Shown here in pieces: positions 47,667-53,122 of a stretch of DNA of 64,000 bases. Under the pieces are notes generated by a model that searched no databases, was not told where the DNA came from, and saw nothing but the letters and a program-made list of their open reading frames with translations. The stretch's first letter is position 1. Every line of letters begins with the position of its first letter. The position numbers and the translations under genes are program-made. Source of the DNA: Telmatospirillum sp. (GTDB lineage Bacteria; Pseudomonadota; Alphaproteobacteria; Rhodospirillales; Magnetospirillaceae); NCBI GenBank assembly GCA_031291415.1, contig JARLJB010000065.1, forward strand, positions 52,828 through 116,827, given 5' to 3'.

Positions 47667-48785
<1,119 letters not shown>

Positions 48786-48855
48786 TCAGGGCTCGTCAAG
48801 AACTTGTTGAAATGTATGATTTTTCAAGAAGATCGCTCGCAGCGCAAGCCGGGCA

Positions 48856-50094
48856 TTACGCGCTGGAACGAAGATTTGGACTCACGGGCCGGCGATAGAC
48901 GAAAAGCGCGGGAATCAACGCCATGCCGCTTCCGCAGAGAATAATGAGCGCGAAGAAGGCCAATTCGGACCAGCCGAGGGTGACGGCAAGATGCAAACCG
49001 GTCCGGGCTTCGATCACCGAACCGGCGACCCAACTGGCGAGCAAGGAGAGGCCGAGGCCCAGCACGCAGCCGGCGGTCAGCAGCCCGGCGGTTCCGAGCC
49101 AGACGGCCAGCAGGACATAACGGCGCGGTGCGCCCAGGGCACGCAGGACGGCGTAACGCCTCTGGCGCAAGCCGACCATGGTGAGCAGCAGGGCGACGGT
49201 GGCGACGAGAACAAGGGCGTTGTTGAATCCCGAAACGACGACCATGGCCAGTTTGACGTCACCCAGCGTTTGGTAGATCGCAACCAGAACCTCGGCTGGA
49301 AACAGCGCCATCGTTCCGTTTTTCCGGTATTCGCCGCGCAGCACATAGGCATCGGCGACAGATTTCGGTTTGACCAGGATGGCCGGCACGCCGGGAACCG
49401 TTTTGGCGTCGAACGGCGGTCCGAGCGGCGCCTCGTCGACCGCATGACCGTTGCCGAGGCCGTGGATTTCCCAGACGCTCTCGATCGGTACCAGGATGGC
49501 CCAATCCCAGGGCGAGTTCTGTCGGGGAAGGCGGCCGACGATGCGATATTGCGCCTCCTCGTGACGGTGGGCGTATTCCTCGGTGTCTTCGGCGCCAAGC
49601 GACCCGTGGTGGGCCATGCCGTGCGACGGCGTGACCGTCGCGCCCAGTTGCAGGGCCACGCTGGCGCCAATCACCGCTTCGTTTTCAGCGGCGAATGTCC
49701 GGCCCTCGGCCGGTTGCAGCCGGCCCCAGCGGCTGACGAAGGAGGTCGTCGTGCCGACCACCGGGTAGCCGTGCACCACGTCACCAAAGGCGATGGGCGC
49801 GGCGGCGGCGACCCGTTTATCGTTGGCCAGCCGATTGAGCAGGGCGCCGTCGGCCAGGCCGATGGCATCCGGTTGCAGATAAACGGTGGTCAGGACAAGT
49901 TGAGTCTGACTGCCCGGCGCGCCGATCACCAGATCGAAATCGTCGGCGGCCCGCGCCGAGGCGGTCCGCAGCGCCTGATCCTGGGCGCTGACCGCGATCC
50001 CGATGGCGACAGCGATGGCGACGACCAGCGGAACCGCCCAGGCGATCCACCGAAGGCTGCGGAGATCGGCCAGAATGATTGGCCAGGGGTTCAT
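48856..50094 (-). CDS. FtsX/MacB-type ABC transporter permease with histidine-rich outer loop
   Basis: 412 residues: an N-terminal helix (WIAWAVPLVVAIAVAIGIAVS), a large periplasmic domain (about 40-270) and three C-terminal helices (FNNALVLVATVALLLTMVGL..., LLAVWLGTAGLLTAGCVLGLGLSLLA, LAFFALIILCGSGMALIPALFVY). LRQRRYAVLRALGAPRRYVL between helices is the FtsX coupling motif. The periplasmic loop HGMAHHGSLGAEDTEEYAHRHEE (near 49555-49625) holds five histidines and several acids, suggesting metal binding. Its ATG overlaps the stop of the ATPase gene. With the ATPase it forms a transporter or mechanotransmission pair; the cargo is unknown. Confidence 0.85.
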   Translation of the reverse strand: MNPWPIILADLRSLRWIAWAVPLVVAIAVAIGIAVSAQDQALRTASARAADDFDLVIGAPGSQTQLVLTTVYLQPDAIGLADGALLNRLANDKRVAAAAPIAFGDVVHGYPVVGTTTSFVSRWGRLQPAEGRTFAAENEAVIGASVALQLGATVTPSHGMAHHGSLGAEDTEEYAHRHEEAQYRIVGRLPRQNSPWDWAILVPIESVWEIHGLGNGHAVDEAPLGPPFDAKTVPGVPAILVKPKSVADAYVLRGEYRKNGTMALFPAEVLVAIYQTLGDVKLAMVVVSGFNNALVLVATVALLLTMVGLRQRRYAVLRALGAPRRYVLLAVWLGTAGLLTAGCVLGLGLSLLASWVAGSVIEARTGLHLAVTLGWSELAFFALIILCGSGMALIPALFVYRRPVSPNLRSSA

Positions 50095-50813
50095 GGCCGT
50101 TCTCCGTCGTCGTTTGTCGAAGCGGTGATCAATCCACCTTGTTCCATATGGACGACCCGATCGAGCCGGGCCAGAAACCGCGCGTCGTGCGACACGGCGA
50201 TTAGCGTCGCTCCAGTTTTCCGGGCTCCGCCGATCAGCAGATCGATGACGGCGGCGCCACTGTCGGCATCGAGGCTGGCGGTCGGCTCATCGGCGAGAAT
50301 CAGCCGGGGGCAGCAGAGCAGGGCGCGGGCGACAGCCACTCGCTGCTGTTCGCCCCGTGACAGCAAGAGCGCCCGACGTGAGGTTTCCGGCAGAGCCATC
50401 TCCGTCGCCAGTTCGATGGCGCGAGCCCGCAAATGGGCTGGGACGCGCCAATGATCGAAACTGATCGGCAACAGGATGTTGGCGAGGACGGACAGTTCCG
50501 GAACCAGGGCGAAATCCTGGAAGACGAAACCGACATTGTCGCGCCGCCAGCGGTCGCGCGCCACCTCGGGGAGGGCCGAGAGTTCCACGGCGCCCCACGC
50601 AAGCCGGCCGCTGCCGGGCAACAGGCCGGCCAGGACATGCAGGAGAGTGGTCTTGCCGGCGCCCGACGGTCCGGCGATGCCGAGACGTTCTCCCGGTGCC
50701 ACCGAGAGCGCAGGAACGTCGAGAATGGTAATGCGCCGGCCGCTTCCTTCGGCCACCGTGACCATCAAATTCTCGATATCGAGGCTGGGACTAACTGCGG
50801 CGGAAGGCGGCAT
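50091..50813 (-). CDS. ABC transporter ATPase (LolD/MacB-like)
   Basis: 240 residues from the ATG at 50813; a TTG two codons upstream is possible. Walker A is GPSGAGKTTLLHVLAGLL and Walker B LILADEPTASLD; the Q-loop is VGFVFQDFALVPELSV. The signature motif reads LLSRGEQQRVAVARAL, with Arg in place of the second Gly of LSGGQ. The gene begins inside the end of the upstream small-protein gene (overlap 23 bases) and its stop overlaps the permease start (ATGA), so all are coupled. It energises the FtsX-type permease. Confidence 0.92.
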   Translation of the reverse strand: MPPSAAVSPSLDIENLMVTVAEGSGRRITILDVPALSVAPGERLGIAGPSGAGKTTLLHVLAGLLPGSGRLAWGAVELSALPEVARDRWRRDNVGFVFQDFALVPELSVLANILLPISFDHWRVPAHLRARAIELATEMALPETSRRALLLSRGEQQRVAVARALLCCPRLILADEPTASLDADSGAAVIDLLIGGARKTGATLIAVSHDARFLARLDRVVHMEQGGLITASTNDDGERP

Positions 50814-51264
50814 CGACAATTCTCACCTGACTGACAAAACCGGTTTCCGGATCGGTCCAGGATCCGACCTGCAAGCGTCCATGCACGGTAATCGGGTCGC
50901 CGGCGCTGACCAGGGGAGCTGTCCCGTCGAGATAGATGACGACGATGTCGAGCGGCCATTCCGCGTCCGATTGGCAAAATGGACACAGGGCCATCGGCTC
51001 GCGGGTCAAGACGAAGAAGTGGCTTTCGGCTTTCAGCGGTGGCGCCATATAGCCTTTCATCGACACGATGCTGTCCTTGAGCGACAGCAGGCGGTCGCTG
51101 AATTCAAGTCCGCGGACGCCGAAGCTTTTGTAAAGGCCGTCGAACGTCAGGGCTTCCTCGCCGCGGGCCGACCGGACCGGCGAGATCAGCGCGGCAACGA
51201 GCAGCGTGGCGGCGCCCAGAACTAGGGGACGCCGCCCGATCGACGATTCGCGAAACGTGATCAC
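50791..51264 (-). CDS. Exported protein of unknown function with CPFC motif
   Basis: 157 residues from a GTG at 51264, 7 bases after the alkaline phosphatase stop. An N-terminal signal or anchor (RRPLVLGAATLLVAALISPVRSARG) is followed by FDGLYKSFGVRGLEFSDRLLSLKDSIVSMKGYMAPPLKAESHFFVLTREP and MALCPFCQSDAEWPLDIVVIYLDG. The 'V.MkGYM.PpL' and 'FVL...CPFC' pattern recalls DUF3299-type periplasmic proteins that occur next to FtsX-type ABC pairs; this is from memory and unverified. The CPFC could bind a metal or be redox active. The second residue block VSAGDPITVHGRLQVG suggests an OB-like strand set. Its 3' end overlaps the ATPase gene. Confidence 0.72.
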   Translation of the reverse strand: MITFRESSIGRRPLVLGAATLLVAALISPVRSARGEEALTFDGLYKSFGVRGLEFSDRLLSLKDSIVSMKGYMAPPLKAESHFFVLTREPMALCPFCQSDAEWPLDIVVIYLDGTAPLVSAGDPITVHGRLQVGSWTDPETGFVSQVRIVDAAFRRS

Positions 51265-51271
51265 CGTTCGC

Positions 51272-53017
51272 TCATGGCTTGGCCAATCCCAGGGCATTGG
51301 CCATATAGCGGAACACCCGGGTATTGTCGATGCGACCATGGAACTGTTCGGCGCCGGGGCCGATCGCCGTCAAGACCACGTCGTCGGCGGCATGCACGTC
51401 CTGCGGCTGGTTGGTCGGCAGATTGCCGGTGCGGCGGACCGCCTGCGGACCGCTGCAGTTCTTTTCGTTGGCGATGTATTTCCCATCGTCACCTTTGACG
51501 GCCGGGACATTCGGCCCTTCGGTATGGGGCCGGATGGTGTCGCAATGGTCGGGAAAGGCGCCGAAGACGAATGCCAAACGACGAGAAACCTCGACCGAGG
51601 TCGGATAGCCTTCGGCATCGGCCGGCGGATAGTTGGGGAACTTCGCTTCGTCATAGACGCCCAGCTTGTCGCGCGCCGTGTCGCCTTTGCGATCGTCGTC
51701 ATAGGTGCCGACGATCGACACCGGATGGGCGTGATCGGCCACCACGATGACCAGGGTATCGTTCTTTTTGGCGGCGAAATCCTTGGCCAGCTTGACGGCG
51801 TTGTCGAGCATGATGGTGTCGAAGATCGCCCGTTCCCAATCGAGAACGTGGCTGTATTTGTCGATATGGCCGGATTCGACCATCAAGACGAAGCCTTTGT
51901 CGCGCTTGGACAGGATGTCGAGGGCGGCGCCGACCTGATCGGTGAGGTCCGGTTGATCGGGGAACTTGTCGACTGATCCCTTCTTGAGAAGACGTCGATC
52001 CAAGGCGCCATCCATATTGCCGGTATTGAACAGTCCCAGCAGCTTCTTGGCGGTATGGCCCGGTTGCACGGCGGCCTTCAGCTCGGTGTTGCTGGTGACG
52101 AAGCTGTAGCCGGCATCCTGGAACTGTTTAAGAAAATCCTTGTCGTCGGTCCGTTTGGAACCCGGTGTCGATTTGGGCAGGAAGTTGGGCGAACCGCCGC
52201 CCATGATGACGTCGGGTTGCACCTGATAGAACATGCCGACGATATCGTTGTAGTCGGCGCGACGGCGCGTGTGTGAAACCATGCCGGCCGGTGTGGCGTC
52301 CTCGATTTCCGTATTGGTGACCACGCCGACCGCCATGTCGCTGCGGCGCTTGACCAGTTCGGCGATGGTTTCGACCTTGGGGTGATCGAGTGTGTTCTTG
52401 TTATGGGCGCAATAGACACCCAGGGCATTGACGCAGGATTTGTGGCCGGTGGTGTAGGCCGACATGCTGTTGGCGCTGTCGGTGACCACGGAATCGGTTC
52501 CCGACGTCGAGACCAGTGCCATGTAAGGCATGTCGTCGATGGCCAGTTCGCCGCCGTAACGGCCTTCCTTCAACCCTTTGGAGAGGATGCGGGCGGCGGT
52601 GCGATGCGCCACCGACATGCCGTCGCCGATGAAGAGAATGACGTTCTTGGCCTTGCGGGCCGGGGTGGCGAAGACTTCCCAGGTGACCCGGACCGGTTCG
52701 GCTCCGCGAACCGTCGCCTCGACGACGTATTTTCCCGGCTTGGCAAGTGTCGCGCCGCGGATCCAAAGGGCCGAGCGTTCGCCATCTTCGCTGGGCAGGA
52801 AGTCGGCCGGCTGAGTGAGGACGCTTTTGGCATCCTGTCCGTTGATCGTCACCGAGACGGCCGAGGCGTCCTGCACCGGGGGAAACTCAACTTTGAAGTC
52901 GAATTGCGAGCCGGCAAGGATCTCCGCGCGATCCAAAGGATAGATCGTCTGGCCGAAGGCCGTGCCGGCAGCCGACAGCATGAGCGCTGCGGCCAACGCC
53001 GAAATTCGCGAAATCAT
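51272..53017 (-). CDS. Alkaline phosphatase (PhoA superfamily), exported
   Basis: 581 residues. A signal peptide (MISRISALAAALMLSAAGTAFG) and about 100 residues of beta-rich domain precede the phosphatase domain. The phosphoserine motif is SVVTDSANSMSAYTTGHK (E. coli VTDSAASATAWSTG). Metal-ligand segments are VILFIGDGMSVAHRTAARI, LMVESGHIDKYSH and LVIVVADHAHP. It hydrolyses phosphate monoesters in the periplasm and needs zinc and magnesium. First gene of a four-gene operon with the CPFC protein and the ABC pair. No Pho box was recognised upstream. Confidence 0.92.
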   Translation of the reverse strand: MISRISALAAALMLSAAGTAFGQTIYPLDRAEILAGSQFDFKVEFPPVQDASAVSVTINGQDAKSVLTQPADFLPSEDGERSALWIRGATLAKPGKYVVEATVRGAEPVRVTWEVFATPARKAKNVILFIGDGMSVAHRTAARILSKGLKEGRYGGELAIDDMPYMALVSTSGTDSVVTDSANSMSAYTTGHKSCVNALGVYCAHNKNTLDHPKVETIAELVKRRSDMAVGVVTNTEIEDATPAGMVSHTRRRADYNDIVGMFYQVQPDVIMGGGSPNFLPKSTPGSKRTDDKDFLKQFQDAGYSFVTSNTELKAAVQPGHTAKKLLGLFNTGNMDGALDRRLLKKGSVDKFPDQPDLTDQVGAALDILSKRDKGFVLMVESGHIDKYSHVLDWERAIFDTIMLDNAVKLAKDFAAKKNDTLVIVVADHAHPVSIVGTYDDDRKGDTARDKLGVYDEAKFPNYPPADAEGYPTSVEVSRRLAFVFGAFPDHCDTIRPHTEGPNVPAVKGDDGKYIANEKNCSGPQAVRRTGNLPTNQPQDVHAADDVVLTAIGPGAEQFHGRIDNTRVFRYMANALGLAKP

Positions 53018-53122
53018 GGATGTTCCCCCCCTGATCGAATTTAGATGGGGCGCATCTTAGGGGGGCGAACAGACGTCAAGAAAATAAGATTATGTTAAAT
53101 TTATGACGATGAACTGCGGCAA

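Follow-up and report, generated by a model that had tools for sequence, protein, structure and literature searches.

The window analysed here, a stretch of 64,000 nucleotides of Telmatospirillum sp. (contig JARLJB010000065.1, positions 52,828 to 116,827 of the forward strand), carries four closely packed genes on its minus strand (48856-53017). They encode a PhoA-type alkaline phosphatase, a small protein with a CPFC motif, an ATP-binding cassette (ABC) ATPase and an FtsX-type permease, in that order (Table 1). A gap of 7 bases separates the first two genes, and the next two junctions are overlaps of 23 and 4 bases; these gene calls and spacings, proposed in an original prediction made by a model from the letters alone, agree with the open reading frame (ORF) list and with Pfam matches. 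The reading preferred here, with a probability of about 0.5, is that the block encodes a Pho-regulated phosphatase with its own ABC machine, related to the Zrg systems of vibrios, which likely supplies periplasmic zinc to the PhoA encoded beside it. Provision of zinc to PhoA is the simplest reading because the gene order, the kinship with Zrg proteins, a histidine-rich loop in the permease, the fold match of the CPFC protein and a Pho box all point to it. The cassette would bind zinc, contact PhoA and hand the metal over. The permease, the CPFC protein and the PF00245 phosphatase each have a single match in the 7.1 Mb host genome.

The four genes form a recurrent unit. A scan of contigs with a profile of the CPFC alignment gave 224 relatives, of which the best 80 loci were kept, and at 75 of these 80 all four genes are present in the same order. 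The co-occurrence of the genes in other genomes, on which the prediction had been staked beforehand, is thus borne out. The carriers include Bosea, Microvirga, Reyranella, Propionivibrio, Rubrivivax and others, which are alpha-, beta- and gammaproteobacteria by their record titles. PhoA lies directly upstream of the CPFC gene on the same strand at 79 loci, being 51-74% identical in the best pieces; at the remaining locus (L110) the contig begins 29 bases before the CPFC match. The ATPase and permease genes follow the CPFC gene at 76 loci. Two of the others (L068, L095) are on contigs that end too early, and at L044 and L083 no permease was found and ATPase matches below 110 bits were not counted. 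Beyond the four genes, no group of neighbouring ORFs reaches more than 14 of the 80 loci (among the 30 largest groups).

Within the class the distribution is patchy: of 385 genomes sampled, 11 have a member of the CPFC family and 4 have a close PhoA (E up to 1e-60). Among the ten non-own CPFC matches of this sample, one locus (L197) has all four genes. At two others (L202/L216 and L203/L217) the CPFC-ATPase-permease cassette is paired with another, shorter PF00245 subfamily; the stretches concerned are L216:2780-6970 and L217:4121-8530, the latter with a divergent ATPase gene. A short contig (L198/L221) has the CPFC, ATPase and permease genes, and three loci (L199/L214, L200/L213, L201/L215) have the CPFC gene with a permease gene nearby in other arrangements. 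One of these lies near a pyrroloquinoline quinone dehydrogenase gene (L213:147-6067), and cytochrome-c-like and pentapeptide-repeat genes can be recognised by eye there and in L215; neither stretch has a PhoA match. The cassette is not present around the distant CPFC relatives L204-L206. The close PhoA also occurs apart from the CPFC gene, alone (L211) or with the ATPase and permease (L212). The latter unit (L212:3652-11552, G476:C1) is situated between pstS and genes read as pstC, pstA and pstB.

The phosphatase begins with a signal that appears Sec-like by eye, and about 100 residues separate this signal from the PF00245 domain. The catalytic and metal positions were checked against those of E. 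coli PhoA (E. coli numbering). D180, E381, D386, H390, D428, H429 and H542 are kept in 76 of 76 PhoA sequences and D132 in 75 of 76. By its sequence the product is a PF00245 phosphatase with metal ligands and nucleophile in place.

The promoter region points to the phosphate regulon. Promoters were taken from 71 loci and the window, which left 67, the window included, after removal of near-duplicates. A plain Pho consensus is matched at 11 or more of 14 positions in 26 of the 67 promoters, compared with 2.1% expected from shuffles; a reversed control gave 4/67 and a spacing control 0/67. Blind expectation maximisation on 63 promoters, with the window left out, yielded ctGTCATcaAA.TGTCAcaT, which is the Pho box with its 11-base period. 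This learnt motif has a log-likelihood of 342; four dinucleotide-shuffled sets gave 77-85, and the region further upstream, from -300 to -160, gave 106 (62 promoters). In-sample, 58 of the 63 promoters exceed a score of 4, most of the sites lying between -60 and -95. Against 1000 dinucleotide shuffles the window site reaches p 0.002 for the learnt motif; with the plain consensus alone the window reaches 9/14 (p 0.35). The block thus has a Pho box upstream of phoA. The promoters of the other PhoA subfamily in L216 and L217 match the learnt motif as well (p below 0.002 and 0.008), and the lone phoA of L211 does so moderately (p 0.026). The motif is not matched at the L212 phoA promoter (p 0.49) and is weak at the L212 pstS (p 0.10).

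A second signal is confined to part of the family. A Zur-type palindrome is matched at 12 or more of 14 positions in 7 of the 67 promoters, all from Bosea or Boseaceae records, with none in 1340 shuffles and 0/67 in the reversed control. With one mismatch at most it occurs eight times in these seven genomes, 0-2 times per genome of 6.0-7.6 Mb: at phoA in six of the seven, G067 being the one without any, and once ahead of the gene for a COG0523 GTPase (L127). A second palindrome of one Bosea genome (L126, G063:C38:75468) is located beside an ORF that looks like an exported protein. A related box (11-12/14) stands upstream of seven of nine histidine-rich znuA genes versus none of six other PF01297 genes (15 genes in nine genomes; L140, out of the proper frame, was classed with the others by its score), about 0.25 being expected in all of the znuA-side DNA. 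The Bosea palindrome may accordingly be a Zur-binding site. As a general feature of the unit the box was rejected, as 12 further genomes score low at phoA. The best sites are 6-8/14 in seven of them (two Microvirga, Reyranella, Prosthecomicrobium, Aurantimonas, Siculibacillus and Pinisolibacter) and 9-10/14, suggestive at most, in five (Xanthobacteraceae L043, Corticibacterium, Consotaella, Pseudochelatococcus and Pectobacterium). On the znuA side of the further genomes 18 of 26 PF01297 matches were examined, eight of Pectobacterium being left out. The best site in the window is 8/14 for this box, which is of the Bosea type and may not be that of the host. Of the two kinds of box that the prediction proposed to look for, a Pho box is found in the window and a Zur-type box only in some relatives.

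The kinship with Zrg systems comes from the ABC pair. With a profile of the ATPase family, 12 ATPases from 15 ZrgA regions score 190-221 bits and a thirteenth, which is a partial ORF, scores 150. The permease profile gives 130-173 bits on 11 ZrgB proteins versus 14-24 on LolC, LolE, MacB and YbbP, and its comparison with ZrgB matched 400 columns (probability 100, E 2.9e-42). The pair accordingly consists of a ZrgB-type permease and a ZrgC-type ATPase, and these matches bear out the link to vibrios that the prediction had drawn. The permease model matches the folds of LolCDE, MacB and YbbP (type VII). In its FtsX domain, its four long helices and the large periplasmic domain that follows the first helix, the modelled protein agrees with a type VII (MacB/LolCDE) ABC permease. 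No protein of the host genome exceeds the cut-off for ZrgA (PF10986; best 12.1 bits), and PhoA occupies the place of ZrgA. Because ZrgA is missing, the block is regarded as a relative of the Zrg systems and not as a member.

The histidine-rich loop predicted for the window permease proved to be a family feature beyond chance. Five histidines (158, 162, 163, 176 and 178) fall within 21 residues, and at least three are present in the loop, aligned to residues 151-182, in all 75 permeases (74 orthologues and the window). Histidine makes up 15.6% of the loop residues versus 1.4% elsewhere. H158 and H211 are found in 75 of 75 and H178 in 71 of 75. By eye, ZrgB permeases carry HG, H and IH at similar places, and these core histidines are kept in the block permeases.

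Related cassettes have other companions. Of six further permease matches, 25-33% identical, five were read in their wider regions by eye. L192 and L193 are sets of ZrgA-like, ATPase, permease and DUF3299-like genes; L194 and L195 are ATPase-permease pairs with other neighbours. L194:1254-5853 is a ZrgBC-like cassette of another type, in which a gene for a TonB-dependent receptor precedes that of the ATPase. L196 has the pair too, and the ORF picks of its wider region took other frames. A small thioredoxin-like ORF (by eye, with no Pfam match) lies near the cassette in L194 and likewise in L196.

The CPFC protein has no Pfam family over the cut-off. Its homologues number 2186 at E up to 1e-3, of which 120 were listed and 27 of those aligned for the profile; the closest named one belongs to Telmatospirillum (P0002; 90% over 79% of the query). 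The CPFC motif reads CPFC in 73 of 73 family sequences. RR precedes the domain in 70 of the 73 and a Tat-like (twin-arginine translocation) pattern, [STN]RRx[FLMVIA], in 53, these being pattern counts and not the output of a signal predictor. Compared with a library of 350,542 chains, the model has its best fold match in 4HSP, the structure of PA4066 (DUF3299/ZrgE). The kinship with DUF3299 that had been suggested for this 157-residue protein therefore stands by fold and fails by profile: PF11736 gives no match up to E 0.5, and the ZrgE of L185 scores 150.7 bits. The model resembles an OB (oligonucleotide/oligosaccharide-binding) fold, and a thiol redox protein was considered as a candidate. 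A role as a nucleic-acid binder resembling SSB, the single-stranded DNA-binding protein, was rejected, the weak PF00436 match being explained by the shared OB fold. Two copies of the family are present in L078:563-3257: about 1.85 kb behind the first comes another (39% identical), directly before the ATPase gene. In L218:5477-8246 a distant relative with a CPHC motif is divergent from znuA (PF01297), which is followed by a gene resembling, by eye, a nickel/cobalt transporter.

The block lies between rnhB and ccrM, which the prediction held to be usual neighbours separated here by an added module. This was upheld in a set of 61 related genomes, 57 of them with a ccrM match, from which 30 ccrM loci were kept. 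At 22 of the 29 non-own loci rnhB was found by tblastn at most 0.7 kb upstream of ccrM; it was not found in six (L014, L020, L025, L028, L029, L030), and at L015 the sequence upstream of ccrM is insufficient. Within the genus an orthologous ccrM is present at three loci (L003, L004, L006), and at each of them the two genes adjoin; a fourth same-genus record (G002) comprises 0.9 Mb only and has no orthologous ccrM. By eye, the ccrM side of the block keeps an upstream region of the sister type, within which a short segment resembles the 3' end of the sisters' rnhB. No close permease relatives were found in the other 60 genomes of the set. In a concatenated tree of 63 complete units the one from the window groups with those of Reyranella soli and of a Bradyrhizobiaceae metagenome-assembled genome (local support 0.98) and not with the Rhodospirillales units, the deeper nodes near the window being weak. 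Taken together, the neighbourhoods, the lack of close permease relatives, the sister-type ccrM side and the tree suggest that the block was gained horizontally. The listed ORFs of at least 90 residues between rnhB and ccrM comprise the four genes plus frames that overlap or run antisense, and no transposon or integrase. The 9-base repeat TTCTTGACG, present close to either end of the block, is within chance (about 5% by our own estimate), and at 63.5% the GC content of the block is in line with that of rnhB (64.3%), ccrM (60.2%) and the window (61.6%).

Table 1. Positions of the block genes and adjoining features in the window
Feature	Position	Strand	Basis
phoA, alkaline phosphatase, 581 aa, first gene	51272..53017	-	PF00245, 264 bits (cut-off 24.4)
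CPFC protein, 157 aa, GTG start, ZrgE/DUF3299-like OB fold (model), Tat-like signal by pattern	50791..51264	-	
ABC ATPase, ZrgC-like	50091..50813	-	PF00005 (ABC_tran), 98.1 bits
FtsX/MacB-type permease, ZrgB-like, His-rich periplasmic loop residues 151-182	48856..50094	-	PF02687 (FtsX), 36.4 bits (cut-off 25.5)
Pho box TCGTCATAAATTTAACATAA, starts 92 bases before phoA start	53090..53109	-	motif derived from the other 63 promoters
Sister-type ccrM upstream region with short rnhB-3'-end-like stretch, possible insertion scar	48765..48836	-	by-eye comparison with L003, L004, L006

If the cassette provides zinc to PhoA, phosphate starvation is predicted to switch on the operon. PhoA would be exported by Sec without metal, and the CPFC protein, mostly with a Tat-like signal, would leave the cytoplasm folded, perhaps with metal on the cysteines of its motif. 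The two would meet at the histidine-rich periplasmic domain of the permease, where the ABC pair, moved by ATP, may transfer zinc to PhoA through mechanotransmission of the kind described for MacB-type proteins. In a group of Bosea-type genomes zinc shortage, too, would increase expression, through the Zur-type box that neighbours the Pho box. A fuller version is possible and is put forward tentatively: the CPFC protein would be a Tat-exported metallochaperone loaded in the cytoplasm, which together with a ZrgBC-type mechanotransmitter metallates Sec-exported PhoA at the expense of ATP, and the Zrg cassette would be a general type VII module with an exchangeable periplasmic client (ZrgA, two PhoA subfamilies, TonB-linked systems).

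The block might instead be an importer or exporter of zinc or another metal that is co-regulated with PhoA, a zinc enzyme that raises demand, and makes no contact with it. Kinship with ZrgBC, the Pho and Zur-type boxes and the divergence of the ATPase gene from the phosphatase-CPFC-permease genes in L217 agree with such a transporter, which is nevertheless doubtful given the near-constant order, with PhoA first and directly before the CPFC gene. Moreover, since no further gene is present at more than 14 of the 80 loci, neither another binding protein nor a metallophore gene set travels with the unit. The latter point, and the phosphatase that would be left unexplained, make export of a metallophore very improbable, even though the ABC subfamily is that of the Zrg systems and such a role is proposed for PA4063-PA4066 in PMC11481552.

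A different substrate is conceivable: the permease could extract a phosphorylated lipid or hydrophobic phosphate ester from the inner membrane and present it to PhoA. A type VII ABC beside an exported hydrolase is known from YbbAP-TesA (PMC12646458), the modelled fold fits, and two PhoA subfamilies go with the cassette. Such a hydrolase complex is unlikely, as the permease groups with ZrgB and not with YbbP or LolC/E, the histidine-rich loop and Zur-type boxes are left unaccounted for, and related cassettes have ZrgA-like and DUF3299-like genes (L192, L193) or a TonB receptor gene (L194) and no phosphatase in the stretch read.

To our knowledge, how periplasmic zinc enzymes obtain their metal under zinc scarcity is largely unanswered. 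A conserved operon joining a zinc-type phosphatase to a Zrg-type ABC, with a Pho and sometimes a Zur-type box, allows the question of zinc supply to be addressed by simple phosphatase assays. PhoA would, in addition, be a client for the ZrgBC and ZrgE proteins, for which two roles, zinc uptake and pyochelin-cobalt export, have been proposed so far. No description of such an operon was found among the best-matching papers, most subscription journals and bioRxiv preprints lying outside the scope of the search. In the literature, ZrgABCDE is linked to zinc, ZrgB is MacB-like and ZrgE/PA4066 has a solved structure and unknown function (PMC9817125, PMC9820375, PMC11481552); PA4064-PA4065 is a MacB-type pair proposed to export pyochelin-cobalt (PMC11481552), and YbbAP-TesA is a type VII ABC with a hydrolase (PMC12646458).

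The block thus combines elements of several known systems. It shares PF00245 and the tested ligand positions with E. coli-type PhoA, but its enzyme has 581 residues, a long spacer between signal and domain, and other operon partners. As in YbbAP-TesA, the genes of a type VII ABC adjoin that of an exported hydrolase; TesA, however, is an esterase/thioesterase, and YbbP has 804 residues and scores 22.6 bits with the block permease profile. In comparison with ZrgABCDE the block lacks a ZrgA over the cut-off in its genome, has the alkaline phosphatase placed first, a CPFC motif where Zrg systems have one of the CIHVPPPPPNQ type, and a Pho box but no Bosea-type Zur box in the window. Nevertheless, it has in common with ZrgABCDE and PA4063-PA4066 a ZrgB-like permease with conserved core histidines, a ZrgC-like ATPase, a probably exported protein with a DUF3299-like fold and, in some of its relatives, Zur-type boxes.

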